Origin: Clavaria fumosa
Taxonomy: Eukaryota; Basidiomycota; Agaricomycetes; Agaricales; Clavariaceae
Assembly (NCBI GenBank): GCA_951802425.1
Contig: OX637798.1
Location: forward strand, 2,294,001 to 2,358,000
DNA: 64,000 bases
Direction: 5' to 3'
Positions 4,170 to 58,560 of this stretch are shown piece by piece. The first letter of the stretch is position 1, and each line of letters opens with the position of its first letter. Under the pieces are notes generated by a model, which saw only the letters and a program-made list of their open reading frames with translations, did no database searches and was not told the origin of the DNA. A program made the position numbers and the translations under genes.

Positions 4170-4177
4170 GTCACATG
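4170..4177. other. Empty target site (GTCACATG) matching the giant hAT insertion
   Basis: The sequence GGTCGGC-GTCACATG-ACACC lies 60 bp before the NLR1 start. The same flanks occur as GGTCGGC-GTCACATG at 14396-14410 and GTCACATG-ACACC at 40907-40919, on the two sides of the 26.5-kb element. NLR1's upstream region therefore preserves the uninterrupted paralogous site with one copy of the 8-mer. Confidence 0.9.
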
Positions 4178-14402: not shown

Positions 14403-14410
14403 GTCACATG
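14403..14410. other. Left target-site duplication of giant hAT (GTCACATG)
   Basis: This 8-mer directly precedes the left terminus TAGTGTTGC and is repeated exactly at 40907-40914. Eight base pairs is the target duplication length of the hAT superfamily. Confidence 0.92.
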
Positions 14411-14500
14411 TAGTGTTGCCACGGCTCAGCTCAGCTTGGCTTTGGCTTGGCTCACAGTATAAGCCATTTGGCAAGGCTTGGCTCGGAGCTGAGCTGATAT
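14411..14500 (+). repeat. Left terminal inverted repeat of giant hAT
   Basis: It begins TAGTGTTGCCACGGCTCAG, followed by several GGCTTGGCT/GGCTCAGCT words. The reverse complement of the right end begins TAGTGTTGCTTACAGCTTGG, so the outer 9 bp are perfect and the inner part is imperfect. Confidence 0.8.
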
Positions 14501-14860
14501 CCATGAGAGCGGCTGGCACAAAAGAGGCTTGAGCCAGGTGGGGACAAAGGGATCAAAGATTTTGTAGTAATGAAAGTTGTATTTGAATTATAATACAAAG
14601 CAATCTCATGGTATATAATAAAGATGTATGAGTACTTACTCCTAGTCTGAGAGGTGAAATGAAACTACCCTAAAGTAACTTGAAAATGGAGGGAATATGG
14701 GCCCAAAAACCCTGCTTTTGCACCATCTGAACTGATCCTTGTCATGACTTGCAATGAAGTCACAACTCACATGCGTACACTCCACTTTGAAGGTATCCAA
14801 CATAGCATATGTCATGAATAAATAACTGACTAGCTAACACCTCACCCATTCATTAGGAAT
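14500..14860. other. Unique sequence inside left end of giant hAT
   Basis: AT-rich sequence with no open frame or motif that I recognise. The matching position at the right end (40310-40770) has different sequence, so this part is not conserved between the arms. Confidence 0.4.
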
Positions 14861-16000
14861 GTAGGGCTTCAATAAGTGTATATATATCCAACAAAGCAGC
14901 ACAATTGCAATAGATCTTCAATTCATTAGTTGAGCTTAACCAATGGCAAGTAATCCACAACCTTCAACATTGCAAGCACACATGAAATGATGCTTGTCTA
15001 AAGATCAGGCATCAGACCTTAACAACGGTAATGGTCATTTAACTGCCCAGCCCAATATACAAGTATTCTTCCTAAGCCAGTACAACCTTGTGAAAAGGTA
15101 CGTCAATGACTCAGTCCAGAATAGGCCAGTCACCCATGAAGCAAGAAGGCATACTTGAAGAATGTTGCTCATAGAGGTCAAACAACCACTCTAAGTTTCA
15201 TTCTCTTTCAACCCTCTTATAAGATAAGAAAACATGGCTATCATGAGTGCCAGTGTCACACAACAGACATGCTGTGAATAACTCCAACACTCATAATGCC
15301 TTACATCCATATAACAACTGCCCAGCCCAAAAATGTTACTTAAGGATCAAGACTTATTATAATCAGTACACCCTTATACAATAAGATCAATGATCAAGTC
15401 AAGATTGCAGCATCACTGAGAAAGCATACTTGATGAAAATAACATAGGTCATCTTCACTTTCAACCTTCCCTTACTATAGGAAAGATAGGCTCCCATGAG
15501 CATAAGTTTCCCAAGACATATATGTCGTGAATAACATTTTGCAGTAAAAATGTTATTCAAGGATCAAGGCTTAATCAGTACACCCTTATACAAGAAGGTA
15601 CATCAATGATCAAGTCAAGATTGTGGCATCACTGAGAAGGCATATTTGATGACAATAACATAAGTTATCTTCACTTTCAACCTTCTCTTACTATAGGAAA
15701 GATAGGCTCCCATGAGCATAAGTTTCCCAAGACATATATGTCATGAATAACATTTTGCAATACAAATGTTATTCAAGCACCCAATACACCTTTGTGAAAA
15801 GGTACATCAATTACTCAGTCCAAAATAGGTCAGTCACTCATGAAACAAGAAGGCATACTTGAAGAATGTCACTTGTAGAGGTCAAACAACCACTCCAAGC
15901 TTTATTCTCTTTCAACCTCCTCATGTGAAATGAAAGTGCAGATGCAGAGTCATACAACAGATATGTTGTGAATAACTCCAAGACCCACTAAAACCTCACT
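14860..16000. repeat. Left arm of hAT: inverted counterpart of right arm
   Basis: Blocks here recur as reverse complement at 39417-40300 and 32560-32813. They include words such as GGCTCCCATGAGCATAAG and AACATTTTGCA. Two roughly 210-bp blocks with the AGGTCATC/AAGTTATC...CTTTCAACCTT pattern lie in tandem at 15340-15780. The paired sequences are interrupted on the right by the Helitron. Confidence 0.75.
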
Positions 16001-16004
16001 TCCA

Positions 16005-16800
16005 TATAGTAGGAAAGTGTGGCTACTATAAGTGCCAGTATTGCCCAACAGATATGTCGTGAATAACTTTAGCACCAATTTCACCTTACAATCCATATAG
16101 TAGGAAAGCATGGCTACTATAAGCACCAGTGTTGTACAACAGATATGTCGTGAATAACTTTAGCACTCATTTCACCTCACAATCCATATAGTAGGAAAGT
16201 ATGGCTACTATAAGCACCAGTGTTGTACAACAGATATGTCGTGAATAACTTTGGCACCAATTTCACCTTACAATCCATATAGTAGGAAAGCATGGCTACT
16301 ATAAGTGCCAGTGTTGTACAACAGATATGTCGTGAATAACTTTAGCACTCATTTCACCTCACCATCCATATAGTAGGAAAGTATGGCTACTATAAGCACC
16401 AGTGTTGTACAACAGATATGTCGTGAATAACTTTGGCACCAATTTCACCTTACAATCCATATAGTAGGAAAGCATGGCTACTATAAGCACCAGTGTTGTA
16501 CAACAGATATGTCGTGAATAACTTTGGCACCAATTTCACCTTACAATCCATATAGTAGGAAAGCATGGCTACTATAAGCACCAGTGTTGTACAACAGATA
16601 TGTCGTGAATAACTTTAGCACTCATTTCACCTCACCATCCATATAGTAGGAAAGTATGGCTACTATAAGCACCAGTGTTGTACAACAGATATGTCGTGAA
16701 TAACTTTAGCACTCATTTCATCCTACAATCCATATAGTAGGAAAGTATGGCTAATGTAAGTGCCAGTGTTGTACAACATATATGTTGTGAATAACTCTAA
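16005..16800 (+). repeat. 91-bp tandem repeat, left arm (about 9 copies)
   Basis: The unit starts CCATATAGTAGGAAAG, continues with TGGCTACTATAAG and a TTGTACAACA palindrome, and ends in ATATGTCGTGAATAAC. Units differ by a few bases. The same family is present in inverted orientation at 31735-32520. ATATGTCGTGAATAA is the most constant word and also occurs singly throughout the arms. Confidence 0.9.
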
Positions 16801-16964
16801 CACCCACCAGTTAAGGATCTAATTCAGTAATTACTAGGCACACTACAAAAGCAAAGTGAGGAATCACTAACAGGTCTACAAACTCTGTGACATAGAGTGT
16901 AGTAAAAGTAATCCACTACTAACAAGAATACAACACTCAAGTAAGTAATGTAGAATACAATGAG

Positions 16965-19400
16965 ACTACAAGACTTATATAGGTATGTACTAATGAGACT
17001 ACTAATGAGACTACAAGACTTGTATAGGTGTATACTAATGAGACTACAAGACTTGTTTAAGAGATTATTAATGGGACTACAAGACTTGTATAAGTGATTA
17101 CTAATGAGACTACATGACTTGGATAGGTGTATACTAATGAGACTACAAGACTTGTTTAGGTGATTACTAATGAGACTACAAGACTTGTATAAGTGATTAC
17201 TAATGAGACTACAAGACTTGTATAGGTGTATACTAATGAGACTACAAGACTTGTTTAGGTGATTACTAATGAGACTACAGAACTTGTATAGCTGTATACT
17301 AATGAGACTACAAGACTTGTATAAGTGATTACTAATGAGACTACAAGATTTATTTAAGAGATTACTAATGGGACTACAAGACTTGTATAGGTGTATACTA
17401 ATGAGACTACAGAACTTGTATAGGTGTATACTAATGAGACTACAAGACTTGTATAGGTGTATACTAATGAGACTACAAGACTTGTATAAGTGATTACTAA
17501 TGAGACTACATGACTTGGATAGGTGTATACTAATGAGACTACAAGACTTGTATAAATGAGACTACAAGACTTGTTTAAGAGATTACTAATGGGACTACAA
17601 GACTTGTATAAGTGATTACTAATGAGACTACATGACTTGGATAGGTGTATACTAATGAGACTACAAGACTTGTATAGGTGTATACTAATGAGACTACAAG
17701 ATTTATTTAAGAGATTACTAATGGGACTACATGACTTGTATAGGTGTATACCAATGAGACTACAATTCTTGTATAGGTGTATACTAATGAGACTACAAGA
17801 CTTGTAGAAGTGATTACTAATGAGACTACAAGACTTGTATAAGTGATTAATAATGAGACTACAAGATTTGTATAGGTGTATACTAATGAGACTACAAGAC
17901 TTGTATAAGTGATTACTAATGAGACTACAATTCTTGTATAGGTGTATACTAATGAGACTACAAGACTAATGAGACTACAAGACTTGTATAAGTGATTACT
18001 AATGAGACTACATGACTTGTATAGGTGTACACTAATGAGACTACAAGACTTGTATAGGTGTATACTAATGAGACTACAAGACTTGTATAGGTAATTACTA
18101 ATGAGACTACATGACTTGGATAGGTGTATACTAATGAGACTACATCTCTTGTATAGGTGTATACTAATGAGACTACATGACTTGGATAGGTGTATACTAA
18201 TGAGACTACATGACTTGGATAGGTGTATACTAATGAGACTACAAGACTTTTATAGGTGTATACTAATGAGACTACAAGATTTATTTAAGAGATTACTAAT
18301 GGGACTACAAGACTTGTATAGGTGTTTACCAATGAGACTACAATTCTTGTATAGGTGTATACTAATGAGACTACAAAACTTGTTTAAGAGATTACTAATG
18401 GGACTACAAGACTTGTATAAGTGATTACTAATGAGACTACATGACTTGGATAGGTGTATACTAATGAGACTACAAGACTTGTATAGGTGTATACTAATGA
18501 GACTACAAGATTTATTTAAGAGATTACTAATGGGACTACATGACTTGTATAGGTGTATACCAATGAGACTACAATTCTTGTATAGGTGCATACTAATGAG
18601 ACTACAAGACTTGTAGAAGTGATTACTAATGAGACTACAAGACTTGTATAAGTGATTACTAATGAGACTACAAGACTTGTATAGGTGTATACTAATGAGA
18701 CTACAAGACTTGTATAAGTGATTACTAATGAGACTACAATTCTTGTATAGGTGTATACTAATGAGACTACAAGACTTGTATAAATGAGACTACAAGACTT
18801 GTTTAAGAGATTACTAATGGGACTACAAGACTTGTATAAGTGATTACTAATGAGACTACATGACTTGGATAGGTGTATACTAATGAGACTACAATTCTTG
18901 TATAGGTGATTACTAATGAGACTACAAGACTTGTTTAAGAGATTACTAATGGGACTACAAGACTTGTATAGGTGTATACTAATGAGACTACAAGACTTGT
19001 ATAAGTGATTACTAATGAGACTACATGACTTGGATAGGTGTATACTAATGAGACTACAATTCTTGTATAGGTAATTACTAATGAGACTACATGACTTGGA
19101 TAGGTGTATACTAATGAGACTACAAGACTTGTATAGGTGTATACTAATGAGACTACAAGACTTGTATAGGTGTATACTAATGAGACTACATGACTTGGAT
19201 AGGTGTATACTAATGAGACTACAAGACTTGTATAGGTGTATACTAATGAGACTACAAGACTTGTATAAGTCATTACTAATGAGACTATAAGTGATTGCTA
19301 ATGAGACTACAGACCTCTTATGGGTGATTACTAATGAGGCTACAAAACTCGTATAAGTGATTGTTAATGAGACTACAGAACTCATATAGACCATTACTAT
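16965..19400 (+). repeat. 33-bp satellite array, left side (about 70 copies)
   Basis: The unit is TAATGAGACTACAAGACTTG followed by TATAGGTGTATAC or TATAAGTGATTAC, 33 bp in all. The ACAAGTCTTGT word at its centre is a 5-bp inverted repeat around a T when read across the unit in the other orientation. Because 33 is a multiple of three, long open frames appear by arithmetic. The array runs in the opposite orientation to the one at 24060-31610. Confidence 0.95.
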
Positions 19401-19935
19401 TGAGACTACAAAACTCATTTGTCTATGCTTAGAACATTTTTTGTTGGGTAGTTTGAGTCTAAAAGTTATTCACAGCATATATAGCACTTGACTCATGAGT
19501 CTATCACAGTCATGGATCCCTAGTATAATCTTTGGCAAGCGTGTATTTTATTCACGACATATATGATATTAGACACTGGAGACAACTAGAGCCATACATT
19601 TCTTACTTATGAGTGGGTACATGGGTGACTTAGTCATATGATACAAATGATAAATGATGCTATTTGAATGATTGGCATCCTTACATTGTATCCTATATTA
19701 CTTTGCACATTTGTGGCTGTATTATGTGGTGGTTTGCTAGCTTCTCGATGTAGAGATTGTCTCTCCGCCTTCAGTCTACTCTACTTAGGAGTTGCATATT
19801 TTGCACTTGCTCTCCTTGTGATAACTGTATGCAGACATTAGAGACGTTTAATGTTGCATCCATTAAGCATACCCATTGTTGACTCAGGCAAAGGATGAAT
19901 AATGAAATTGTCATTGTGCGATTATGAATGTGTAT
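19401..19935. other. 3' flank of hAT transposase
   Basis: No gene is seen. It carries two isolated copies of the arm motif (TTATTCACAGCATATAT near 19468 and TTATTCACGACATATATG near 19550). This shows that the motif extends up to the transposase gene. Confidence 0.5.
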
Positions 19936-22900
19936 TTACTGTCCCGTACTAGGACCAGGTTCAGCAAGTGTCTTCATGTAGGAACGAAGATCCTCAGGCA
20001 CTACTTGAGCTGCCTGCTGCTCCAACTCTGCTACTTCGTCCTCCCACTTCTGGCCTTTGCTAAAATTCAGCTCCTCTCCTTTCCTGAAGAAATATTTCAG
20101 AATTTGTAATGATTCCATTAGTGCTGGAGAGATCCTGCTTCGTCTTGCAGTCATTGTTTCTTTTCCTGATGAAAAGATGCGTTCACATGGCACACTTGTC
20201 GCTTGGATAGGTATAATATCCATTGCCAATTGAAACAGTCGTGGGTATCGATTTTGAGATTCCTTAAAGAACCTAAGTGAACTGTTGATTTGAAGGGTTG
20301 GCCACTTACCTGCCAGAATGAGATGGCACTTGTTCCCATCTCAGTATCATTCAAGTACTGGTCTACTTCCCGATTAACTGAACGGTCCTGGCCATTAGAG
20401 TGTTTGTGTCGAAGCCAGAGAATATCTGCAGCACTCTGCTCTATTTCTCCATCTGCTTTGTCTTGTTTAGATGGCTCTGTGGGTTGTCCTTGTCCATAGG
20501 ATGACACCTGAAGGATATGTTAGGCATAATTGTTATACATTTTATCTGACTCACTGCATTGATCAAAGCCTGTCTGGCTGTTTGGTATCTCATAGGATCT
20601 GAGTCACGAAATGCATTGAGTTTGCTCTCTGGATCAAGTGCTAAAAGACATAATTTATAATGTGTTAACCAGAAAGAGGTCAACTCACCCATTGCTATCA
20701 CATAGGCAGGAACTTCCTTTGCATAGTCAAAGTAGTCTTGGAGTTTTTGTATTCCAAGCTCAATGATGGGACCTGCTGCGTCTTCTTCCTCTGCAAGCTC
20801 CTCCCATCTAGCAATGAATGCCTCAAAGGCAGAAATTGCATGGCATAAAGTTGGTGTGTTTTCAAGAGCCAACATATGTTGAAACGCATGGGGCACCTGA
20901 TCAATAATAGTTTTAACTTAGAGCTTATATCACATAAGGATGAGACCTCAAGGATGGCTTTGTAAAGTTTCAACTTCTTCCAGTCTTCAGATTTTAGGGC
21001 ATGTTTCCTGAGCTGAGGAAATTCATCGTACTGAAGGAGCTTTTCAATTGCCTACAGAATAATTTGAGCATCACATCTCAAAGCTTTCTAAGACATACCT
21101 TTCTGAGAGCTAAAGCACGCTTAATCATAAGGTGTGTTGAGGACCACCTTATGTCAGTGTCGGAGAGTAGTTGCAAGTTCTTCTTGTTAACCTCTTGTAC
21201 AATTGATGAGAAGCCTTGCCGACAAAGAGAAGAATTCCGAATCTGTGGAGGTTTCTTTAATGCATTTGACAGAATGATGAGGAGCCATACAGAGATAATG
21301 AGGGAACGTAGCACTGCAATACTATCTTTCTGTGTTGCTGGACCAGAATTATAGTCAGGTGCATTGGCTGCTGCAAATTGGATGTGTGTAATGGCCTTGA
21401 GAGTAGCTTTACATGCCAAGTTTACTATGTGAGCAAAGCAACTAAGGCAAATTCTCAACCTCCATGTAAATGTTCACAATTCAAATTACCCACCATATTC
21501 TTTGCTCATACTGATCAAATTGGATGCCTCGGTCATGTAGGACTTCTTCCAATGATGCCATCATGGTATCATTGTTAGAGGCATTGTCTGATGTGATCCA
21601 GCCAACCTAGACTTCAGTCAGACATAATATATATGAATACAAAATGTTTCTCACTTTCTCTGCAATCTTGAGGCAGTCTATAATGTACAGAAAGCAATGT
21701 GCGAGGTGCTCCCCAGTGTGGCGCCCAGGGATTCTATGAAATCCAATCAAATCAGCTCTGAGTCGAAGTTGCTTATGTTGCCCTGCAACAGTGTTTGCTT
21801 CAATTGGTTGGACCCAGTGGGCAGTAACGGCCATGTATGGGACTTGATTGGGGTCTGTCCAGACATCTGTTGTGAATGAAACCTTCCCAAGTGACATCTG
21901 TATGGATTCAGCACCTGTTTGATTAGGGATAGAGTACAACATACTTTCAGCTCCTCAGCTAAGTGATCAATATAGGTCTGGTAGACCTTATTGATATGAG
22001 TGTAAATGGCAGTACGATGAGGAATGTCTGCTTCCTTGAGCTCCCGTCGCAGAAGTAAGAAGATCTTGCGTAAATGTGAAGATTCGATGACATTTAGGGA
22101 CTAAACCTGAAATCAGCATGGTTTGTGGATAGTGTTCTACTCTGACCTGGTCATCAGCTACTATAAACTCAACTAGGGCATCAAGAAATGCCTGTTTTGA
22201 GAAAGGCTGGCGCCGTAACTGCTGTACTACATTGCCTGATGTTTTCCTGTATTCCTGGATGACTGGTTGAGCATCTTGAGCTGTAATCTCAATCCCAGCA
22301 TCATCACAGGCTTGGATCCACAATTCAATGTGGTTCTCATATAGATGACGCCTAAGAACTCCAGTTGATGTCTTATGGCTGAAGTCAATGACTTTATAGT
22401 CAGGATTGGCAGCTGAGAATTCCCTATTAACATTCAATAAGTAAGAATCATAACCTAAGTTCTATTGACCAATGACCACCCACAAGCAAAACTTGCAATA
22501 TTGTCTTTGTTCTCTCAGTTCAAAAAATGTCCTCACGTCAGTGGCCTTATGCTGTTTGTGCCGTTGTGGTTCCTTGCTTGGAGGGCCAGCTTGAGTAGGT
22601 GGAGGCTGAGCTTGAGCTTGAGATCCAGGAGGAACAATGGCATTAGGATGGGCACTCGTGTCAGATTCTGATTCTGAACCCAAGTCTAGTTCTGCCATTG
22701 CATCTGTGAAGTCCTCAACCCGAAGCTGAGAAGCTTGGGGTAGACTTGGTTTCAAGCCTACAATTGGATGAAATATAGGCTGGGGAATGCGAAAAGGAGT
22801 TGGTGATGGAGGCTGCATTGACCTATGTGGATGCCTGGATCGTGGAGTAAAAAGAACCTGGGCTGCTTGACTCCCTTACATTATTCAGTTAGTCATATAA

Positions 22901-23321
22901 TGTCTATTGAAGTCACAAATGTGCATCTACCTCTAGTAGCCATCTCATTCTGATGAAGTGCAACTTGGACAGGAAGTTTTGAAGGGCTTCTGATTGTGCG
23001 TTGTGGTCGTTTAACTGTCCCTATTCAATCAATGTCAGTCATGAACTAACATCCAACAAGTGAAGTATGCCTTGATTGGTTGTTGCAGCATCAACAGTAT
23101 CTGGGTTGACATTGGCAGACTCAGACCTGTGTTCTGTGGGATACATATTAGATGCTGTGCCACATAATAAACATAAACTGAAGATATGAAAGGAAGAATT
23201 GAAATGAAGAATAAGATGAGAGTAACAAACCGTCAACTTGGGAATGGGTCTGAGGATGCTCGTCTGAGGGCTTGACATGTTGCTTTTGATTGGTTTTGTT
23301 ATTCTTCTTTCTTGGGGCCAT
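19936..23321 (-). CDS. hAT-superfamily transposase (multi-exon)
   Basis: Reading from 23321 down, the start MAPRKKNN is followed by a basic, Ser/Pro-rich leader. A split BED zinc finger comes next (YCKFC near 22500, LRRHLYENHIE near 22335). PFSKQAFLDALVEFIVADDQ is at 22200, and SLNVIES with an RRELKEADIPHRT stretch at 22090-22010. The DDE core shows SFTTDVWTD near 21870, WITSDNASNND near 21580, CFAHIVNLACKAT near 21440 and DTDIRWSSTHLMI near 21160. The hAT dimerisation domain, SVPCERIFSSGKETMTARRS near 20190, and a final acidic tail end at 19936. Exons are separated by short GT-AG introns, and no definite lesion was seen. It should cut and paste elements with TAGTGTTGC ends; its central position makes it the likely source of mobility. 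Confidence 0.85.
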
Positions 23322-24060
23322 AGTGCTGTATTCAAGGAAGAAACTCAGTGATGCAGGAATGTGAACATATATGGTAGACCTGGCCCTGATTGTCCTACAT
23401 GTCAAACATTGCAAATGTCGTGAATAAATGGTGAAGGCTTGTTTGAAAATGCTTTCTTAGATACTCTATAATAGAGCTTAGGAGTCTTACTAGTAATTGG
23501 TTACCTGGATTGGCAGACTTGCCATCATGAAGTGGTGTGACTCTGTGAACTTGTTAGTAATTACTTGGTTTTGCCAGCAATGGGATACTTATAAGACTCT
23601 ATTGGGGAGTCTTTTGTTGTACTCTCATTAGTAATTAATTACTAACAAGTTACAAAACTCCATAGTAAAGTCTGGCTACTGAAGAGATCCTTGGACTCTG
23701 TCACAGAGTTTTGTCTTGTCACTTGGGTTACTTACATTGGGGTTGTAGTTGTGTGACTAATTACTTACTTAGGTTTTGTAGTATGTTAATAGTCACTAAG
23801 CTTATGATTGTAATCTTATTGATAATTACTTGTAGTAACACTTATTTGATTCACTTCCATGCATGAACTTTAGGGCAGGGTTATTTGAACTTTGCCACTT
23901 GTTCATGCATGCTAAAGATGGGGTGGAGGGGAAGAGGGGTTAAAGGCCCTTTGAGTCATATTAATAGTTACTTGTAGTCATGTCACTAATTACTTACTTT
24001 AGATTTGTAGTCATGTAAGTCATCACTTACTTAAGGGTTGTAGTCTGGTTAGTAATCACC
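23322..24060. other. 5' flank of hAT transposase, degenerate satellite
   Basis: No gene is seen. It holds AATGTCGTGAATAAATGG near 23415 (the arm motif) and scattered TAATTACTTACTT/GTTTTGTAGT words. These words grade into the 33-bp satellite beginning at about 24060. This is the likely promoter side of the transposase. Confidence 0.45.
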
Positions 24061-27000
24061 TACACAAGTCTTGTATTCTTATTAGCAATCATGGGTATAC
24101 ACCTATAAGTCTTGTAGTCCCATTAGTAATCACTTATACAAGTCTTGTAGTCTCATTAGTATACACCTATCCAAGTCTTGTAGTCTCATTAGTGTACACC
24201 TATACAAGTCTTGTAGTCTCATTAGTATACACCTATACAAGAATTGTAGTCTCATTAGTAATCACCTAAACAAGTCTTGTAGTCTCACTAGTAATCACTT
24301 ATACAAGTCTTGTAGTCTCATTAGTATACACCTATACAAGTCTTGTAGTCTCACTAGTAATCACTTATACAAGTCTTGTAGTCTCATTAGTATACACCTA
24401 TACAAGTCTTGTAGTCTCATTAGTATACACTTATACAAGTCTTGTAGTCTCATTAGTATACACCTATACAAGTCTTGTAGTCTCACTAGTAATCACCTAT
24501 ACATGTCTTGTAGTCTCATTAGTATACACTTATACAAGTCTTGTAGTCTCATTAGTGTACACTTATACAAGTCTTGTAGTCTCATTAGTATACACCTATA
24601 CAAGTCTTGTAGTCTCACTAGTAATCACCTATACATGTCTTGTAGTCTCATTAGTATACACCTATACAAGTCTTGTAGTCTCATTAGTAATCACCTATAC
24701 AAGTCTTGTAGTCTCATTAGTGTACACCTATACAAGTCATGTAGTCTCATTAGTAATCACTTATACAAGTCTTGTAGTCTCATTAGTAATCACCTATACA
24801 AGTCTTGTAGTCTCACTAGTAATCACCTACACAAGTCTTGTAGTCTCATTAGTGTACACCTATACAAGTCATGTAGTCTCACTAGTAATCACTTATACAA
24901 GTCTTGTATTCTTATTAGTAATCACCTACACAAGTCTTGTAGTCTCATTAGTGTACACCTATACAAGTCATGTAGTCTCATTAGTAATCACTTATACAAG
25001 TCTTGTAGTCTCATTAGTAATCACCTATACAAGTCTTGTAGTCTCATTAGTAATCACCTATACAAGTATTGTAGTCTCACTAGTAATCACTTATACAAGT
25101 CTTGTAGTCTCATTAGTATACACCTATACAAGTCTTGTAGTCTCATTAGTAATCACCTATACAAGTCTTGTAGTCTCATTAGTAATCACCTATACAAGTC
25201 TTGTAGTCTCATTAGTATAAACCTATACAAGTCTTGTAGTCTCATTAGTAATCACCTACACAAGTCTTGTAGTCTCATTAGTAATCACCTATACAAGTCT
25301 TGTAGTCTCATTAGTGTACACCTATACAAGTCATGTAGTCTCATTAGTAATCACTTATACAAGTCTTGTAGTCTCATTAGTAATCACCTATACAAGTCTT
25401 GTAGTCTCACTAGTAATCACCTACACAAGTCTTGTAGTCTCATTAGTGTACACCTATACAAGTCATGTAGTCTCACTAGTAATCACTTATACAAGTCTTG
25501 TATTCTTATTAGTAATCACCTACACAAGTCTTGTAGTCTCATTAGTGTACACCTATACAAGTCATGTAGTCTCATTAGTAATCACTTATACAAGTCTTGT
25601 AGTCTCATTAGTAATCACCTATACAAGTCTTGTAGTCTCACTAGTAATCACTTATACAAGAATTGTAGTCTCTTTAGTAAACACTTATACAAGTCTTGTA
25701 GTCTCACTAGTAATCACTTATACAAGTCTTGTATTCTTATTAGTAATCACCTACACAAGTCTTGTATTCTTAGTAGCAATCACTTATACAAGTCTTGTAG
25801 TCTCATTAGTATACACCTATATGAGAATTGTAGTCTCATTAGTATACACCTATATGAGAATTGTAGTCTCATTGGTATACACCTATACAAGTCTTGTAGT
25901 CCCATTAGTAATCACTTATACAAGTCTTGTAGTCTCATTAGTATACACCTATACAAGTCTTGTAGTCTCATTAGTATACACCTATACAAGTCTTGTAGTC
26001 TCATTAGTATACACCTATACAAGAATTGTAGTCTCATTAGTAATCACCTAAACAAGTCTTGTAGTCTCACTAGTAATCACTTATACAAGTCTTATAGTCT
26101 CATTAGTATACACCTATACAAGTCTTGTAGTCTCATTAGTAATCACCTACACAAGTCTCATTAGTATACACCTATCCAAGTCTTGTAGTCTCATTAGTGT
26201 ACACCTATACAAGTCTTGTAGTCTCATTAGTAATCACTTATACAAGTCTTGTAGTCTCATTAGTAATCACCTATACAAGTCTTGTAGTCTCATTAGTAAT
26301 CACCTATACAAGTATTGTAGTCTCACTAGTAATCACTTATACAAGTCTTGTAGTCTCATTAGTATACACCTATACAAGTCTTGTAGTCTCATTAGTAATC
26401 ACCTATACAAGTCTTGTAGTCTCATTAGTAATCACCTATACAAGTCTTGTAGTCTCATTAGTATAAACCTATACAAGTCTTGTAGTCTCATTAGTAATCA
26501 CCTACACAAGTCTTGTAGTCTCATTAGTGTACACCTATACAAGTCATGTAGTCTCATTAGTAATCACTTATACAAGTCTTGTAGTCTCATTAGTAATCAC
26601 CTATACAAGTCTTGTAGTCTCACTAGTAATCACTTATACAAGAATTGTAGTCTCTTTGGTAAACACTTATACAAGTCTTGTAGTCTCACTAGTAATCACT
26701 TATACAAGTCTTGTATTCTTATTAGTAATCACCTACACAAGTCTTGTATTCTTAGTAGCAATCACTTATACAAGTCTTGTAGTCTCATTAGTATACACCT
26801 ATATGAGAATTGTAGTCTCATTAGTATACACCTATATGAGAATTGTAGTCTCATTGGTATACACCTATACAAGTCTTGTAGTCCCATTAGTAATCACTTA
26901 TACAAGTCTTGTAGTCTCATTAGTATACACCTATACAAGTCTTGTAGTCTCATTAGTATACACCTATACAAGTCTTGTAGTCTCATTAGTATACACCTAT

Positions 27001-30000: not shown

Positions 30001-31610
30001 ACACCTATATGAGAATTGTAGTCTCATTAGTATACACCTATATGAGAATTGTAGTCTCATTGGTATACACCTATAAGTCTTGTAGTCCCATTAGTAATCA
30101 CTTATACAAGTCTTGTAGTCTCATTAGTATACACCTATCCAAGTCTTGTAGTCTCATTAGTGTACACCTATACAAGTCTTGTAGTCTCATTAGTATACAC
30201 CTATACAAGAATTGTAGTCTCATTAGTAATCACCTAAACAAGTCTTGTAGTCTCACTAGTAATCACTTATACAAGTCTTGTAGTCTCATTAGTATCCACC
30301 TATACAAGTCTTGTAGTCTCATTAGTAATCACCTACACAAGTCTTGTAGTCTCATTAGTGTACACCTATACAAGTCATGTAGTCTCATTAGTAATCACTT
30401 ATACAAGTCTTGTAGTCTCATTAGTATACACCTATACAAGTCTTGTAGTCTCATTAGTATACACCTATACAAGTCTTGTAGTCTCATTAGTTTACACCTA
30501 TACAAGAATTGTAGTCTCATTAGTAATCACCTAAACAAGTCTTGTAGTCTCACTAGTAATCACTTATACAAGTCTTGTAGTCTCATTAGTATACACCTAT
30601 ACAAGTCATGTAGTCTCATTAGTAATCACTTATGCAAGTCTTGTAGTCTCATTAGTAATCACCTATACAAGTCTTGTAGTCTCATTAGTAATCACCTATA
30701 CAAGTCTTGTAGTCTCATTAGTGTACACCTATACAAGTCATGTAGTCTCATTAGTAATCACTTATACAAGTCTTGTAGTCTCATTAGTATACACCTATAC
30801 AAGTCATGTAGTCTCATTAGTAATCACTTATGCAAGTCTTGTAGTCTCATTAGTAATCACCTATACAAGTCTTGTAGTCTCATTAGTAATCACCTATACA
30901 AGTCTTGTAGTCTCATTAGTGTACACCTATACAAGTCATGTAGTCTCATTAGTAATCACTTATACAAGTCTTGTAGTCTCATTAGTATACACCTATCCAA
31001 GTCTTGTAGTCTCATTAGTGTACACCTATACAAGTCTTGTAGTCTCATTAGTATACACCTATACAAGAATTGTAGTCTCATTAGTAATCACCTAAACAAG
31101 TCTTGTAGTCTCACTAGTAATCACTTATACAAGTCTTGTAGTCTCATTAGTATACACCTATACAAGTCTTGTAGTCTCATTAGTAATCACCTATACAAGT
31201 CTTGTAGTCTCATTAGTATACACCTATACAAGTCTTGTAGTCTCATTAGTAATCACCTATACAAGAATTGTAGTCTCATTGGTATACACCTATACAAGTC
31301 ATGTAGTCTCATTAGTAATCACTTATGCAAGTCTTGTAGTCTCATTAGTAATCACCTATACAAGTCTTGTAGTCTCATTAGTAATCACCTATACAAGTCT
31401 TGTAGTCTCATTAGTGTACACCTATACAAGTCATGTAGTCTCATTAGTAATCACTTATACAAGTCTTGTAGTCTCATTAGTCTTGTAGTCTCATTAGTAT
31501 ACACCTATACAAGTCTTGTAGTCTCATTAGTGGTCTCATTAGTAATCACCTATACAAGTCTGATAGTCTCATTAGTACATACCTATATAAGTCTTGTAGT
31601 CTCATTGTAT
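24060..31610 (-). repeat. 33-bp satellite array, right side (about 225 copies, higher-order)
   Basis: The same 33-bp unit as at 16965-19400, but in reverse complement (CTTGTAGTCTCATTAGTAAT plus CACCTATACAAGT). Variant units with TATATGAGAATTGTAG occur in pairs near 25830, 26800, 27520, 28630, 29250 and 30010. Blocks of several hundred base pairs between them are almost identical, so the array has grown by segmental duplication of multi-unit blocks. Confidence 0.95.
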
Positions 31611-31734
31611 TCTACATTACTTACTTGAGTGTTGTATTCTTGTTAGTAGTGGATTACTTTGCTTTTGTAGTGTGCCTAGTAATTACTGAATTAGATCCTT
31701 AACTGGTGGGTGTTAGAGTTATTCACTACATATA

Positions 31735-32520
31735 TGTTGTACAACACTGGCACTTACATTAGCCATACTTTCCTACTATATGGATTGTAGGATGAAATGA
31801 GTGCTAAAGTTATTCACGACATATATGTTGTACAACACTGGCACTTATAGTAGCCATACTTTCCTACTATATGGATGGTGAGGTGAAATGAGTGCTAAAG
31901 TTATTCACGACATATCTGTTGTGCAACACTGGCACTTATACCAGCCATGCTTTCCTACTATATGGATTGTAAGGTGAAATTGGTGCCAAAGTTATTCACG
32001 ACATATATGTTGTACAACACTGGCACTTATAGTAGCCATACTTTCCTACTATATGGATTGTGAGGTGAAATGAGTGCTAAAGTTATTCACGACATATCTG
32101 TTGTACAACACTGGCACTTATAGTAGCCATGCTTTCCTACTATATGGATTGTAAGGTGAAATGAGTGCTAAAGTTATTCACGACATATCTGTTGTACAAC
32201 ACTGGCACTTATAGTAGCCATGCTTTCCTACTATATGGATTGTAAGGTGAAATTGGTGCCAAAGTTATTCACGACATATCTGTTGTACAACACTGGTGCT
32301 TATAAAAGCCATACTTTCCTACTATATGGATTGTAAGGTGAAATTGGTGCCAAAGTTATTCATGACATATCTGTTGTACAACACTGGTGCTTATAGTAGC
32401 CATGCTTTCCTACTATATGGATTGTGAGGTGAAATTGGTGCTAAAGTTATTCACGACATATCTGTTGGGCAATACTGGCACTTATAGTAGCCACACTTTC
32501 CTACTATATGGAAGTGAGGT
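31735..32520 (-). repeat. 91-bp tandem repeat, right arm (about 9 copies)
   Basis: Reverse complement of the repeat at 16005-16800. Each unit has GTTATTCACGACATATCTGT, then TGTACAACACTGGCACTTAT and CTTTCCTACTATATGGA. Copy number is about the same on both sides. Confidence 0.9.
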
Positions 32521-32819
32521 TTTAGTGGGTCTTGGAGTTATTCACAACATATCTGTTGTTTGACTCTGCATCTGCACTTTCCTTTCACATGAGGAGGTTG
32601 AAAGAGAATAAAGCTTGGAGTGGTTGTTTGACCTCTACAAGTGACATTCTTCAAGTATGCCTTCTTGTTTCATGAGTGACTGACCTATTTTGGACTGGGT
32701 AATTGATGTACCTTTTCACAAAGGTGTATTGGGTGCTTGAATAACATTTGTATTGCAAAATGTTATTCACGACATATATGTCTTGGGAAACTTATGCTCA
32801 TGGGAGCCTATCTTCTATA

Positions 32820-34340
32820 TATTAAATGACAGTTGTCCATGCTGACACATAACTTTACTAAGCATTGGTCAGCAACTTTATAGTGCGAACTTTTGCCAAT
32901 TTCAAACTCAGAAAAGTGCACATTTATAGAACTCAACAACCAATGGATGGAAATACATGAAACTTTGTAGGTAGATAGGTCCCTATAGGGAGACCCTCCT
33001 ATAATATCTTCAATATTTTATCAGTAGAATTGCGGGCGTGGGAACAAATCCGTATCGTGCTAATTTTAAACTCCGACGTTCCCAAAAGTCGTACTGAGTG
33101 CACTTCCATGGCTATATCTCAGCAACCACACCATGTATTCCTACCAAACTTTGGGAGTAGGTGGGTAGGTATTAGTAGTGTCTACAGTAATATTTACATG
33201 ATTTTACCTGATTTGATGGACATGCAAGAAAGCGAAATGTGGTTGTTACACTCAAGCTTTCCTTTTGTAGCAACCCTTGAGAGTGAAGCTAATTGTGACA
33301 GTGGGCTGTATCTCAACAACCACTTGATAGAATTACACCAAACCTCAGGCCTACATAGCTATATGACTATAGTATCCATCACAATATTTACATGAATTTA
33401 GCTAACTTACAAGCTTGCCAAAAGATCACTCAATACTTACCTATCACTTTAGCCCAACATTGTTGAGGCTATATCTCAAGAACCCCTCAATGAAATTGCA
33501 CCAAATTTTGATAGATTGATTACACATATAGGATCTATATACAGTTAAAATTTGAAATTATTTGCTTCAGTGGTTCACGAGATCTGAGTTATTCACGACA
33601 TATCGCTATATTGACCCAGGCTCTTACCTGGGCCTGGCTTTCCTACCATGTAGGGGGGTGAAGATAGAACCCCCCTACAAAAAAGATCATTTGTGCTCTT
33701 ACTACTGTTAGTACTACTTCTAACCTACATGGTGAAGTTGTATTGACTGTTGATGGTTACAGATTGTGCTCTGCAACATCTATTGACTTCAACTATTACT
33801 GTGGGCTTTATTAGAGTGTGGGCTTTGAACAAATTGAACTGTGGGCTTTATTAGAGTGTGGGCTTTGAAACAACAGTTAGTGCTGCTTCAAACTAAAGCT
33901 TTGGAGTTGTATTGACTGTTGATGCTTTGGGCTTAGACAAATTGGAGTGTGGGCTTTTAAACTACAGTCAGTCCTGCTCTAAACCTATGTGTTAGAGTAA
34001 TGACTGATCATAATTTGGGCTTTATTAGAGTCTGGGCTTTGAACTATAGTCAGCCTTGCCCTAAACTACTGTGGTGGGCTTTGAAAGTGAATTGTGCTGT
34101 GGCTTTGAACACACTGTCAGTCCTGCCCTAAACTAAGATGTTGAAATTGTATTGACTATCAATCCCCATAGAAGCACTCTGAATCATTAATTGCAATACA
34201 ACTACAACAGTGGGCTATACAATACAAGTTGAACTGGGGCCTTACAATATAATTGGACTGTGGGCTGTCAATACAAGCCTCTCCTGCTGTGCTACTTGCA
34301 TCTAACACACACTATGTAAGTACATTCTTGGGCAGGGTAT
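32820..34340. other. Helitron 5' non-coding region with diverged tandem repeats
   Basis: No gene is seen. From about 32900 to 33560 there are four diverged units of roughly 150 bp built around TATCTCAACAACC...ATTGCACCAAA...TTTACATGA. Near 33588-33680 a segment resembles the 91-bp arm repeat (GTTATTCACGACATAT then GGCTTTCCTAC). 33790-34150 contains several copies of a GTGGGCTTTATTAGAGTGTG-type word. The stretch includes whatever promoter the Rep/helicase gene uses. Confidence 0.6.
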
Positions 34341-37300
34341 TTGGGGAGTTTTGACCCTTTCTATAGGTCAGAACCTCCTCCAAATACTCCTCAACGTGCA
34401 AGGATTGCACTAAGGGAGTTACAACGAGCTGCCAGGGAGTTAGGAAGCCCTCCAAGGAGAAGAGTACCAAGAAATCAAGCTGCACAACCCATTCCTCCTC
34501 CAATTCCTTTGCTATTCAGGGAGGCAAGGGCAGATAATCAACATAATCAAAATGCAGCAGATCCATTTGCAGCACCTATTCCTGCTCAGCCTACCTTCAG
34601 GCAGTATCACCACCTCCCTGAACCTCTTGCTGCACAATTGGCTCAATTACCACTAATGCCTGTTGCCCCACAGCCAAGGCATCGTCCTATACAACAGTTT
34701 GCACCAGGTGCTCTACCAGACCCTCCTATCCTGCCTGCTAATGCTGTCCCTGCGCCTATTCAGCCTGCTAGGATTTTACCTCCAGCTCGCAGACCATTCA
34801 ATAAAGAAGACATTCAAGTCTTCAACCTGGGGCCCATGAATGTAGTCTGCCCATCTTGCAAAGCCCTGCATTGGATGGTAGAGAAATTAAGCCAATCATC
34901 TCAGGGTAGACCCAAGTTTGGCATGTGCTGCTTCAGTGGCAAGCTTGATTTGCCACTACTCCATCCATTGCCCAGAGAGCTCCAGGTCCTATATCATGAT
35001 CAGGATGATCAGGCAAAAAAGTTCAGGAAGGATATACGCCACTACAACAATGCTCTGGCAATGACATCTGTTGGACAAAGCCCAGGAGTAAGGCTTGGGA
35101 TAGACCAAGCCATTAACAATGGAGGTGGGCCATGGCTTTACAAAGTCAAAGGTGCTCTCCACCACATTTCTGGCTCTTTGGTTCCCAACCCTGGCAATAC
35201 TCCAAGCTTTGCCCAGCTGTACATCTATGATCCAACCGAAGCTTTGGACCATCGAATGGCATCCCGATATAACTCTGGACTTGACAGGGATACCATGCAG
35301 ATCCTGCAAGATGTACTCTATAGATGTCATCCTTCTGTGGCCATGTTCAAGCAAGCACATGAACAACTCAGAGGCCTTGCTCCTAACCAGGAATACAAGA
35401 TTGGCCTGCAATTTGACAAGGAATGTGATAGGAGAAGGTACAACCTACCATCTGCCACTTCCAATGAAATAGCAATCATTATTCCTGGGGATGGTGATCA
35501 AGCTCTGCAGCCAAGGGACATTGTGCTGTTTTACAGAGGAGGGGGTTTGAGGCAAATCAATGAGATGAACCCCATATATCACTCATTGCATTATGTTCTC
35601 CTCTTTCCAACTGGACAACTTAGCTGGCATCCTAGGCTGGAGTTTAAAGCTGCTGGAGAGGTGGCAGAGGCTGAAGAGGGTGGAGAAGCATTGCTGGCAC
35701 CTGGGCAGGAGCCTGAAGTCCCTCAGACAGGAAATGTGGTGGCAAGGCGAGGAAGACGATCATACATTTCCCAAGCTGAATACTTTCGATATCGACTCTT
35801 CACAAGGCAGAATGAGTCAGATCACATCTTCAGAGCTGGCCACCTGTTTCAAGAGTTCATTGTTGATGCATGGGCATCATCAGAACAGTCTCGCCTCACC
35901 TGGGTATCCAACAATCAAACTGTTCTTCGTGCTGATGTTTATCAAGGACTGGTGGATGCTGCAGCAAATGTTGATGTAAACCTTGCAGAGCTTGGACAGC
36001 GCATCATCCTCCCTTCATCCTTCACTTGCAGTGCCCGTAATATGATCCAACACTGTCAGGACTCCTTGGCCATCAATCGTCATTTTGGTGGTGCAGATCT
36101 CTTCATCACTATGACAGCAAACACAATTTGGCCAGAGATCAAGGATGCTTTACTTCCAGGACAGACTGCAGCAGATCGACCTGATTTGGTCTGTAGGGTA
36201 TTTCATGCTAAAGCAGAACAGCTCATCTTTGATCTCACCAAGAACAAAGTGCTGTCACAAGTGTTGGCATACATCTGGACAAAGGAGTTTCAGAAACGTG
36301 GCCTACCTCACATGCACATGATTGTCTGCCTTCACCCTGATGCCAGAATGCGAACACCAGAGGATGTGGACACCTTCATATCAGCAGAGTTCCCTGACAA
36401 GGACCTGCACCCAGAGCTGTATGAATTGGTGAAGAAGTATATGGTCCATGGTCCCTGTGGAGCACTCAACCCAAATTCACCTTGCATGGAGAATGGAGTA
36501 TGTACTAAAAACTTCCCAAAGCCATTCAGGGATGCCACCACAATCTCTGAAGACAGCTACCCATCCTACAGGCGTCGTGATGATGGCAGACTTCATGATG
36601 TTCGTGGCCACCAAGTGGACAATCGCTGGATTGTCCCATACTCTCCATACCTTCTTTACAGGTACCAATGCCATCTCAATGTGGAATGTATAGGCTCTGT
36701 CAAGTGCTTCAAGTACATCCACAAGTATATTTATAAAGGGCATGACTGAACCACTATGGAGTTTGGGGCTTGCAGGGATGAAGTGAAACAGTACCTGGAT
36801 GCTCGCTTTGTGAGCGCCCATGAAGGGTGTTGGCGCCTCTTCATGTTTGACATGCACAAAGAGGTCCCCAATGTTGTTAGGCTGCAAGTGCATCTCCCTG
36901 GCCAACAGTTAGTCACCTGGGACCCAGCAAACCAGCAGGACATTCAGCAGGTTATGGATCATGCTGCAAACAGGGATTCTACTCTTACAGCCTACTTCAA
37001 GGCCAATGCCAAATACAGAGATGCCTCCCAGTTACTCTATCATGAATTCCCTCAAAAATTCACTTGGGTGGCAGGCAAAAGAGAGTGGAAGCCCAGGCAG
37101 CAAAGATTTGCAATTGGACGAATGTACTATGTCAATCCCACTGCTGGGGAAAGGTTTTATCTGCGCACACTACTCAATTATGTCAAGGTATGTCAACATG
37201 CATACCTATAGTGCTGTCATATTCCTGATTGCTCTACAGGGTGCAACTTCATTTGATGACCTAAAAACCTTCCAAGGGACTATCCACCCTTCCTTCCGTA

Positions 37301-39166
37301 ATGCCTGTTTGGCTCAAGGACTCCTGGAGGATGATGGAGAATGGGTTCAATGCCTCCAAGATGCCAGTGCCATGCAGACAGGCAAGCAACTCAGGGCCTT
37401 ATTTGCAGTCATTCTAAGAGACTGCCAACCTTCCCAGCCAGCAGAACTGTGGACTCAATTCAAGGTGCACATTTGTGATGATCTGAAGCATGGTCTGCGC
37501 AGACATGGAGTTGCAGATCCATCAGAGGAACAGGTTTATGACTATGGCCTTCATCTGATTGACCAGATCCTTGGCCACAGCAACAAGTCCCTCAGGGATT
37601 ATCCTCCAATGCCACTGTCTCAAATGGATTGGCAACAAGTGGTTGGCAATAGGCTTATTGCACAGCACAAGGACTATGATGTGGAGGAGCAGCAGCAATT
37701 GGCAGATGAACATGTACCCATGTTGAATGCTGATCAGAGGGCAGCCTTTGATCAGATCATGGAGGCAGTCAACAACAACTCTGGCACCAGCTTCTTCCTC
37801 AATGGACCAGGAGGCACAGGCAAGACATTTGTGTACAACACAATATGTTACACTCTGCGAGCCCAGGGACAGATAGTCATCTGTGTTGCTTCCTCTGCCA
37901 TTGCAGCACTCCTCATCGTTGGTGGAAGGACAGCACACTCAACCTTCAAAATCCCAATCCTCATCCATGAATCATCAACTTGCGCAATCAAGAAGAACAG
38001 CTTTGAAGCTGAACTTCTACAATCTGCAGCTATGATTATCTGGGATGAGGCACCAATGCAGCATCGTCATATTGCTGAGGCTGTGGACAGGACATTGCAG
38101 GATATCCGTGGAAGTGATAGGCTATTTGGTGGATTGACAGTGGTGTTTGGTGGGGACTTCCAACAGACATTGCCTGTTATTGTCAAGGGTTCAAGGCCAC
38201 AGATTGTTGGGGCCTGTCTACAGCGTTCAGTACTTTGGAGACACCTTAAAATCCTCAACCTATCTGTCAACATGCGTTTGGGACCAGAGCAGATGGAGCA
38301 AGAATTCGGACAGTGGCAGCTTGATGTTGGGCATGGGAAACATACAGACAATGACTGCAACCTCAAGCTTCCTGAGCACTTTAAGTGTGCTGACAATACA
38401 TTGGCCTCCCTGGTTCAATTCATCTATCCAGGTTAGTTAATGTTTGGACAACACATTGGCATATGTGACTCAATTCATCTATACAGGGATTTCAGATCTC
38501 CCTCATCCACCTGATCAGTACTTCAAGGATCGTATGCTCCTCTCTGCACGAAATGAGGATGTTCACAGCATCAATGCCACAGTTCTCAGAGGCTTTCCTG
38601 GGGAGGAGAGGGTTTACCATAGTGCAGACTCTGTTGCAGCAGTAGGGGAAGGAGATGAGGGAGAAATGCTCTATCCAGTGGAATACCTCAATTCCATCAA
38701 TGCATCTGGGCTTCCATTGGCCAAGCTCACTCTTAAGATTGGCTGCCCAATCATGGTGTTGAGGAATCTGAATCCAGTACAGGGAGTCTGCAATGGGACA
38801 AGGGGTATCTTGACAAGGATGTCAAATAGAGTGTTGGAGGTTCGTCTGTTGGGTGGGGAGCATGCTGGCCAAAAAGTTTTCATCCCTCGCATCACACTTA
38901 CTCCTTCCGACATCCAAATTCCTTTTGAACTCAAATGTCGGCAATTCCCTGTGTCTGTGGCCTTTGCCATGACCATCAACAAGAGCCAAGGGCAGTCTGT
39001 GAAATATGTGGGGTTGGACTTTAGGACTTCTGTGTTCACCCATGGACAGTTTTATGTTGCTGTTTCACGTGTTACTTCTGTTCAAAGGATTAAAGCAATT
39101 TGGAATCCCACTGCTGCAGAACCTGTTACAAAGAATATTGTCTACACTGAAGTTCTACTTGACTAA
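34341..39166 (+). CDS. Helitron Rep/helicase (RepHel) with one in-frame stop
   Basis: The first block, 34341-36749, has a Pro-rich leader and a CxxC motif ([10 protein letters not shown]). The Rep domain follows, with its HUH motif PHMHM near 36305-36320 and the two-tyrosine motif [10 protein letters not shown] near 36715-36740. TGA at 36747-36749 stops the frame where related proteins continue; CGA to TGA would explain it. The same frame continues to 37187. GT-AG introns at 37188-37239 and 38432-38486 restore a PIF1-type helicase: GPGGTGKT near 37806, IIWDEAP near 38036, VFGGDFQQ near 38146, then NKSQGQSV and VAVSRV to the stop at 39166. Role: nicking, strand transfer and unwinding in rolling-circle transposition. 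The start is uncertain (34341 is TTG); an upstream exon or a later ATG is possible. Confidence 0.88.
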
Positions 39167-39386
39167 TGTTTATTGTGACTGGCTGAATACTGCTCTACAC
39201 CACTTTACTTACACTACTGTACTTAGAATGTACCTGTTGACCTATCATTTTATGTGATACCCAGACTATTTGTGCTCTGTGCACTACTTTATAACAATGT
39301 ATATGTTGGGCTTACAATTGGTGTGATGACCACTTCTCTTATACTAAGTAAGACTACAAAACTTAAGTACTAACATTTCTCTTGCA

Positions 39387-39405
39387 CCTTGCAGTGTCTG
39401 CAAGG
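39387..39405 (+). other. Helitron 3' terminal hairpin
   Basis: CCTTGCAG, loop TGT, CTGCAAGG forms a perfect 8-bp stem, 11 nt before the terminal CTAG. This is the position of the transposition stop hairpin in the family. Confidence 0.9.
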
Positions 39406-39416
39406 GTTTTTGCTAG

Positions 39417-40300
39417 TTCCTATAGTAAGAGAAGGTTGAAAGTGAAGATAACTTATGTTATTGTCATCAAGTATGCCTTCTCAGTGATGCCACAATCTTG
39501 ACTTGATCATTGATGTACCTTCTTGTATAAGGGTGTACTGATTAAGCCTTGATCCTTGAATAACATTTTTACTGCAAAATGTTATTCACGACATATATGT
39601 CTTGGGAAACTTATGCTCATGGGAGCCTATCTTTCCTATAGTAAGGGAAGGTTGAAAGTGAAGATGACCTATGTTATTTTCATCAAGTATGCTTTCTCAG
39701 TGATGCTGCAATCTTGACTTGATCATTGATCTTATTGTATAAGGGTGTACTGATTATAATAAGTCTTGATCCTTGAGTAACATTTTTGGGCTGGGCAGTT
39801 GTTATATGGATGTAAGGCATTATGAGTGTTGGAGTTATTCACAGCATGTCTGTTGTGTGACACTGGCACTCATGATAGCCATGTTTTCTTATCTTATAAG
39901 AGGGTTGAAAGAGAATGAAACTTAGAGTGGTTGTTTGACCTCTATGAGCAACATTCTTCAAGTATGCCTTCTTGCTTCATGGGTGACTGGCCTATTCTGG
40001 ACTGAGTCATTGATGTACCTTTTCACAAGGTTGTACTGGCTTAGGAAGAATACTTGTATATTGGGCTGGGCAGTTAAATGACCATTACTGTTGTTAAGGT
40101 CTGATGCCTGATCTTTAGACAAGCATCATTTCATGTGTGCTTGCAATGTTGAAGGTTGTGGATTACTTGCCATTGGTTAAGTTCAACTAATGAATTGAAG
40201 ATCTATTGCAATTGTGTTGTGGTTAGCATGTGACTAGAAGTTGGTGATCTATTTCATGACATATACTATGTTGGATATACACACCTAAAGCCCTACTACA
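39417..40300. repeat. Right arm of hAT beyond the Helitron
   Basis: Reverse complement of 14860-15700. It contains GTTATTCACGACATATATGT near 39582, GGGCTGGGCAGTT twice, and TTGGATATACAC near 40270 matching 14877. It continues the arm interrupted at 32813. Confidence 0.75.
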
Positions 40301-40770
40301 TTCCTCATGCACACAGCAAGGGGGTGCTCGTGATTTTTCATAACAACCCATGTTATGTTTGTATCACTTGTATACTAGCTTTCTATTTCTGACAATTCAA
40401 TCAACTTAAGGGCTGGTTTCTATCAAATATGGTGTTATCCATGACAGCAGCAGAGATGATGAGAGACAAGTACTTAATCTAATCCATGCCCGCCCCTTCC
40501 TCTTTTGACTCCCACTGTCAATCATTACCTTCTAGTCATTACCTTCTAGGATTTTATGTGGTACACTATGCTTTTACTTTGTAAGCTTATTTACTCTTCT
40601 TTTTCATTTATAACCTTGTAGTCTACTATTGTAGGAGTTCTAGTAGAAGTCCCAACTAATACGCACACTCACTGTTCTCCTGCACGAACTCTAGCTGTGC
40701 TTGCTGTGAGAGATGGCAATGTGGATTTTACTGTCTGGCCCAAAGCTTTGCTATCACATTCATTTACCTT
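40301..40770. other. Unique sequence inside right end of giant hAT
   Basis: No gene or repeat is recognised, and there is no counterpart in the left end. It may be an older insertion in this arm. Confidence 0.35.
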
Positions 40771-40819
40771 CTGAGAGCCGCCTCAAGCCTTGAGCCATAT
40801 CTAAGCCAACTGTGACAAG

Positions 40820-40906
40820 CCTGGAGCCGAAGCCATGGCTTGGCTCAGCTCAAGTATGGCTTGGTTTCATGGCTCATGGCTTGAAGCCAAGCTGTAAGCA
40901 ACACTA
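40820..40906 (-). repeat. Right terminal inverted repeat of giant hAT
   Basis: It ends GCTGTAAGCAACACTA, preceded by GGCTTGGCTC/GGCTCATGGC words that mirror the left end. GTCACATG follows immediately at 40907-40914. Confidence 0.85.
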
Positions 40907-40982
40907 GTCACATGACACCAGCTGGCCATCGATAAGCATCGTCGCAAACTTGCATCTTTCGTCAACACTACTTGTATCAATC

Positions 40983-43631: not shown

Positions 43632-43862
43632 TATAGAGTTATAAAATCTAGAATAGACTTATTAGCTCAGTCGTAAGATTGACTGTGTTTCTATTGATCA
43701 CCTAGAATAGACTTATTCTACTTTATGTGATCAGCAACGTATGCAAAACGAATGAAAAACTATAGGTACTCACAGCTCAGTTGTAAGATTGACTGAGCTG
43801 TAATGCTGTGTCGCGTCTCGCGTAATCATCCGTAAAAGGCAAGACAGTTTGATTACCTAACA
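43632..43862 (-). repeat. 3' LTR of copia element
   Basis: 231 bp, differing from the other LTR by C/T at two places (near 43738 and 43791). It contains short internal repeats of TAGAATAGACTTATT and GTAAGATTGACTG. Confidence 0.93.
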
Positions 43863-43869
43863 CTCCCCT

Positions 43870-58556: not shown

Positions 58557-58560
58557 GATC

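Follow-up and report, generated by a model that had tools for sequence, protein, structure and literature searches.

The window analyzed here is a 64,000-nucleotide stretch of contig OX637798.1 from the basidiomycete Clavaria fumosa (assembly GCA_951802425.1, forward-strand positions 2,294,001 to 2,358,000), and it contains a DNA transposon of the hAT superfamily at 14411-40906. The element has 9-bp terminal inverted repeats (TIRs), TAGTGTTGC at 14411-14419 and GCAACACTA at 40898-40906, is flanked on both sides by the 8-bp target site duplication GTCACATG, and carries a predicted transposase gene between two long arms that mirror each other and are built largely of tandem repeats; a Helitron lies within the right arm. 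An initial annotation of this stretch had proposed that the ends and the exact duplication define the element to the base, and our analysis, which searched a genome of 48.8 Mb in 17 contigs, bears this out. Taken as a whole, the locus very probably holds a hAT element with a core of about 5.7 kb and mirrored array arms on each side of the transposase gene. The copy in the window is called C5 below, and other copies are likewise named by contig (C2 and C9).

Boundaries and structure of the element

The sequence GTCACATG occurs on the plus strand of the window at positions 4170, 14403, and 40907 only. The first of these had been described as an uninterrupted site in a duplicated locus, and homology to that locus was indeed found on both flanks of the element: the right flank is 92.7% identical to the 4170 paralogue over 2.7 kb, and a gapped alignment of the left flank extends about 70 bp, in which 19 of the final 20 bases are identical. 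Because the paralogy is fragmented farther left, we regard 4170 as a good but nonallelic empty site. Directly downstream of the element is a NACHT-WD40-like gene (40907-43630 and 62741-64000, with a NACHT-type open reading frame [ORF] from 41773), whose paralogous copy at 4170-8172 is without the hAT element. A protein search with a NACHT query gave matches of no more than 91% identity.

Both halves of the element have the same order from the outside in: a terminal region, an arm stretch that contains a 216-bp duplication, an array of 91-bp units, and an array of 33-bp units (Table 1). The arms start internally, after a terminal region of 486 bp on the left and 687 bp on the right, and mirror symmetry between the two tips is confined to the 9-bp TIR. 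GGCTT/AAGCC motifs cluster toward both ends, numbering 5 in the outer 120 bp and 6 in the whole 486 bp on the left (base-shuffle mean for 486 bp, 0.65) and 7 in the outer 120 bp and 9 in the whole 687 bp on the right (base-shuffle mean for 687 bp, 1.1). Long reading frames in the 33-bp arrays were rejected as genes, because the unit length is divisible by three and several frames of a given array stay open.

Once the 6,603-bp Helitron is subtracted, the C5 element measures 19,893 bp, in agreement with the size of about 19.9 kb first given for it. The two terminal regions and the centre together account for about 5.7 kb, and the arms account for about 14.2 of the 19.9 kb; the description of the element as nearly all inverted repeat arms is inexact on this point, and the arms are internal, not terminal. 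The Helitron carries Helitron_like_N and PIF1 domains (Pfam), and the right arm of C2 is uninterrupted where C5 carries it. This supports the earlier view of a Helitron nested in a single hAT element, with the C2 copy retaining the remaining parts, and points to a later insertion in one copy only.

Table 1. Features of the C5 hAT element and its target site (window positions)
Feature	Position	Strand	Details
Empty site, paralogous locus	4170..4177	.	8 bp GTCACATG, uninterrupted
Target site duplication, left copy	14403..14410	.	GTCACATG; exact match to right copy
Left terminal region	14411..14896	+	486 bp; starts with 9-bp TIR TAGTGTTGC
Left arm	14897..19415	+	216-bp duplication stretch, 91-bp array, 33-bp array
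216-bp duplication in left arm	15360-15777		
Left 91-bp array	15953..16804	+	9.4 units
Left 33-bp array	17000..19418	+	about 70 units
Centre	19416-23970		Holds transposase gene
hAT transposase gene	19936..22818	-	Predicted 10 exons, 812 aa; open frame 22818 to 19936
Right arm, inner part	23971..32813	-	33-bp array, 91-bp array, stretch up to Helitron
Right 33-bp array	24038-31481		226 units
Right 91-bp array	31710-32559		9.3 units
Helitron within right arm	32814..39416	+	6,603 bp; TC...CTAG ends, 3' hairpin, Rep/helicase ORFs
Right arm, outer part	39417..40219	-	99.25% identical to 14897-15699 inverted
Right terminal region	40220..40906	+	687 bp; carries TIR GCAACACTA
Target site duplication, right copy	40907..40914	.	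GTCACATG; exact match to left copy

Central transposase gene

The central gene reads as an 812-amino-acid (aa) hAT transposase, the identity first predicted for it, with nine predicted GT-AG introns of 46 to 60 nt. The protein contains the hAT C-terminal dimerization domain (Dimer_Tnp_hAT, PF05699; E = 4.1e-14), matches Hermes in a PDB search (E = 8.8e-07), and has a BED-type CxxC...HxxxxH pattern. A Pfam search up to E = 1 returned the hAT domain only and thus no THAP or P-type transposase domain. Catalytic D/D/E positions and a CxxH motif are present in the C5 protein, and among 12 aligned homologues (of 26) the first D is conserved in 12, the second D and the E in 11 each, and CxxH in all 12. 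The best of the 26 homologues, found by scoring only the 7,999 candidates with the most shared words, is a Pleurotus protein with 42% identity across 99% of the query. Where a match carries an organism name, it is that of an agaricomycete, except for one weak match to the chytrid Blyttiomyces.

Two of the nine introns were chosen by resemblance to known relatives, and the motif alignment does not bear on those junctions; the 42% match across 99% of the query agrees with the junctions chosen.

Copies and relatives in the genome

A 900-base query spanning the left end and arm start gave two full-length matches outside the window, and the right end likewise gave two; because the DNA search skips simple repeats, all copy counts for the family are lower bounds. 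The C2 copy (C2:4623643-4638847; 15,205 bp) is without the Helitron and has the exact duplication TGTGTAAC. As it has the same ends, arms, and centre as C5 with a different exact 8-bp duplication, the ends and duplication of C5 are beyond chance, and chance ends were ruled out. The C9 copy (C9:280823-299116; 18,294 bp) is more diverged than C2, and an alignment places about 5.9 kb of extra DNA inside its centre. Arm starts are common to all three full-length copies and lie about 486 bp from the left end and 676 to 687 bp from the right end, the right terminal region of C9 being about 676 bp long. The initial annotation had proposed a genome search for copies with the same ends and arms and had named differing end points as the sign of separate insertions; two further full-length copies with these ends and arms were found, and C2, the near-identical one, has the same end points as C5.

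Decayed pieces were found at C3:4632055-4636515, C3:4654454-4655307, C2:271400-272410, C2:5024937-5026254, and C12:2131916-2136031, besides at least four shorter places. The piece at C2:271400-272410 keeps an end adjoining an arm at about 84% identity in its best pieces, from which it follows that the architecture is not recent. The C12 piece was considered as a fourth giant copy, but the 33-bp array adjoining it belongs to another dispersed family, and it was counted as a central fragment.

The sequence TAGTGTTGC was counted 339 times on one strand of the genome and 332 times on the other, versus 78 and 111 times for a reversed control pattern, which places the giant element in a larger pool of elements with the same TIR. 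Elements of 617 and 221 bp share this TIR and have the exact 8-bp duplications TAACACCT and GGATGACT, respectively, with 10 and 3 GGCTT/AAGCC motifs in both outer 120-bp stretches together. A longer relative, C7:2471832-2476617 (4,786 bp), has the same 9-bp ends, a duplication matching at 7 of 8 bases (CTGCGGGT/CTGTGGGT), and a transposase 49% identical in the best stretch, but it has no inverted arms and no arrays longer than about 120 bp. Given this armless relative of 4,786 bp with the same TIR, the giant element is an ordinary-sized 5.7-kb hAT stretched by mirrored tandem-repeat arms with units of 216, 91, and 33 bp. About a dozen short matches to the C-terminal part of the transposase (approximately residues 724 to 803; 51 to 56% identity; 86-aa open frames) were also seen, for example at C1:119385-119630, C2:20947-21192, and C12:76249-76494. 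The first two of these start 193 bp from a TAGTGTTGC, and the pieces perhaps represent a deletion-derived nonautonomous family.

Evolution of the arms

The left and right arms of C5, C2, and C9 were compared over 803 aligned columns containing 26 two-state sites. Nine of these sites group both C9 arms against the four arms of C5 and C2, while four group the left arms of C5 and C2 against the rest, one splits all left from all right arms, one groups the right arms of C5 and C2 with the left arm of C9, and 11 are single-arm changes. Over about 800 bp, the two arms within a copy are 99.25%, 99.25%, and 98.4% identical in the three copies. The 91-bp arrays are 852 bp (left) and 850 bp (right) in C5 and 763 and 762 bp in C2, which puts C5 and C2 one unit apart. 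Set against these observations, the outer arm has six differences between left and right, which are identical in C5 and C2; in the 91-bp arrays, identity between the left arms of C5 and C2 (97.4%) exceeds that between the two arms of C5 (96.5%) and of C2 (94.6%); and the C9 arrays are unequal, at 471 and 753 bp. On balance, the comparison moderately supports episodic conversion between the opposite arms of an element.

Between C5 and C2, the centre shows 15 differences in 4,551 bases, the left end none in 485, and the right end 3 in 687; the two copies thus separated recently, and the near-identity of their sequences would imply recent movement. Since that separation their 33-bp arrays have diverged in length, with 70 left and 226 right units in C5 and 12.5 and 148 in C2 as counted by the TRF program (61 and 31 in C9), and the copies now measure 19.9 kb without the Helitron and 15.2 kb, respectively.

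Neighboring and dispersed repeats

A long terminal repeat (LTR)-type element occupies 43632-62740 of the window and splits the NACHT-WD40-like gene whose paralogue lies at 4170-8172. Its 231-bp LTRs (43632-43862 and 62510-62740) are 99.1% identical, a 5-bp duplication, GCACT, was recognized by eye in its flanks, and it contains a long minus-strand ORF at 58531-62508 that we call pol-like, a label given without a domain search. Inside it are inverted tandem arrays of a 336-bp type (44115-46507 versus 58560-56233; 87%).

Elsewhere in the genome, a second dispersed family is built on a different 33-bp unit, at C8:1469056-1473933 and many other places, with at least 372 matches. It forms inverted pairs at many of the listed places, the single copy read has a palindromic centre, and the two pieces read contain no stop-to-stop frame longer than 119 aa. 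Of the TAGTGTTGC occurrences listed, none comes within 14 kb of the places given for this family on C1 and C2. It is apparently another foldback-type family.

Alternative explanations and proposed mechanism

Several observations weigh against reading the locus as a hAT core expanded by arms. No target duplication was found at the ends of the C9 copy, whose left TIR has one base changed; a duplication shifted into the flank was considered for C9, but neither 8-mer is present in the 1.5 kb examined on the opposite side. The gene model was produced by a script using GT-AG introns and is a computational prediction that is not based on RNA. The C2 gene has one in-frame stop, and the C5 protein has a cysteine beside CxxH where 11 of 12 aligned relatives have arginine; on account of these two departures, we do not claim current activity for the copies. 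Finally, the armless relative has only 2 and 0 GGCTT motifs in its outer 120-bp stretches and no cluster; it has the TIR in common with the giant element, whereas for the subterminal motif this is not clear.

The structure might instead reflect separate insertions nested by chance, in which a small hAT was later struck by a foldback or satellite element. The arms do begin inside the ends, and the genome does contain another dispersed family of 33-bp arrays around a palindromic, apparently noncoding centre. The shared arm starts argue strongly against unrelated insertions, however, for arm starts, array order, and the central gene are common to three copies at three loci. The C2 copy holds all parts except the Helitron and has its own duplication, the decayed relative at C2:271400-272410 already has an end followed by an arm, and inspection by eye revealed no duplication around the arm starts. 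We therefore reject unrelated nested insertions for the present copies and consider this account very unlikely, although a nested insertion is possible as the first origin of the arms. An assembly artefact of collapsed or mirrored repeats is even harder to credit and strikes us as extremely improbable. Long inverted arrays do pose problems for assembly, and their lengths vary strongly among copies, but two copies lie on different contigs with different flanks and exact duplications, and the arms within each copy are nonidentical.

A third alternative makes the arms selected machinery, their arrays being multiple transposase-binding sites needed by the BED domain, as proposed for Galileo. In its favor, each 91-bp array of C5 contains eight copies, spaced 91 bp apart, of the motif AGTGTTG, which corresponds to TIR positions 2 to 8, and each 91-bp array of C2 contains seven; the copies are oriented as in the neighboring end. 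Yet the match was noticed post hoc, and 3% of base-shuffled 91-bp units contain a 7-mer of the TIR on either strand. In the C9 arrays the motif is less frequent (four on the left and five on the right) and irregularly spaced, and beyond the arrays each C5 arm holds two copies in opposite orientation. No 7-mer of the 33-bp consensus unit, which makes up the bulk of the arms, is present in the outermost 120 bp at either end. In addition, the armless 4.8-kb relative is flanked by a duplication, as are the small elements that share its TIR. We consider selection of the arms for this role rather unlikely.

Under the preferred reading of a hAT core with mirrored array arms, the transposase encoded by the central gene would act on the 9-bp ends together with the GGCTT-rich outer 120 bp. 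The arms would be passengers that grow and shrink through slippage or unequal exchange, and conversion would at times make an element's two arms alike. The arms may also supply additional transposase sites, as has been suggested for Galileo, since the TIR core is found in most 91-bp units of C5 and C2 and points the same way there as in the neighboring end.

Comparison with known systems

Long inverted arms made of arrays are best known from Foldback/MULE and Galileo/P elements. The element described here has the long inverted repeats, consisting largely of tandem repeats, that characterize foldback-type elements, but these repeats do not reach its termini. On every feature tested it belongs to the hAT superfamily, with 9-bp TIRs TAGTGTTGC/GCAACACTA in C5 and C2 and an exact 8-bp duplication in two of the three full-length copies (C5 and C2, with C9 lacking one), and the arms set it apart as a variant; the initial claim that it is distinct by size and structure is upheld. 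The further suggestion of an undescribed giant hAT lineage stands in part: there is a family of copies, but the giant size is that of a 5.7-kb hAT plus variable arms, seen in one genome only. We view it as a foldback-like, low-copy hAT lineage from a single genome. The system allows the timing of arm conversion and of array growth to be set against individual transposition events, and hAT transposition in this fungus is able to move about 15 to 20 kb, provided that the copies transposed intact.

hAT elements usually yield 8-bp duplications, according to the available part of one report (PMC12730594). The accessible portion of a study of the agaric Marasmius oreades describes hATs that, like the present element, have TIRs, a hAT C-terminal dimerization region, and nonautonomous companions of about 0.6 kb with matching TIRs; its MarorhAT-10 measures 3,396 bp, with no array arms described in that portion, compared with 15 to 20 kb and mirrored array arms here (PMC9674265). 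In a literature search with partial, mainly open-access coverage, none of the titles and abstract openings listed mentions a hAT element that carries array arms. The Drosophila foldback element Tetris, as presented in the part of its report available to us, resembles our element in having inverted repeats with internal tandem units that also form kilobase arrays and differs in being apparently nonautonomous, with 220-bp units, and in belonging to an insect (PMC4079207).

The closest architectural parallel appears to be Galileo, a member of the P superfamily. In the accessible parts of the reports on it, Galileo likewise has long inverted repeats with possible direct tandem repeats, strong length variation among copies, tandem-repeat expansion, and other transposons, a Helitron included, inserted within it (PMC4168063, PMC3688188). 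It differs in its superfamily, its THAP domain, and the terminal position of its inverted repeats, which in the longest D. willistoni copy, one without the transposase segment, are 4.2 and 4.7 kb long (same parts of PMC4168063 and PMC3688188), in contrast to the hAT gene and internal arms found here. Transposase DNA-binding sites have been reported, in the part of that source available, within the tandem repeats of the long Galileo TIRs (PMC3688188), and the recurrence of the TIR core in the 91-bp units offers a suggestive parallel. It is conceivable, if doubtful, that a hAT lineage independently evolved a Galileo-like foldback design, with arms that at times homogenize themselves, TIR-core units, an expandable multisite end, and an approximately threefold increase in size, while still transposing. 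The presence of array arms around a hAT gene that has an open frame in C5, in an element with two near-identical copies, suggests that this design arises in different superfamilies.

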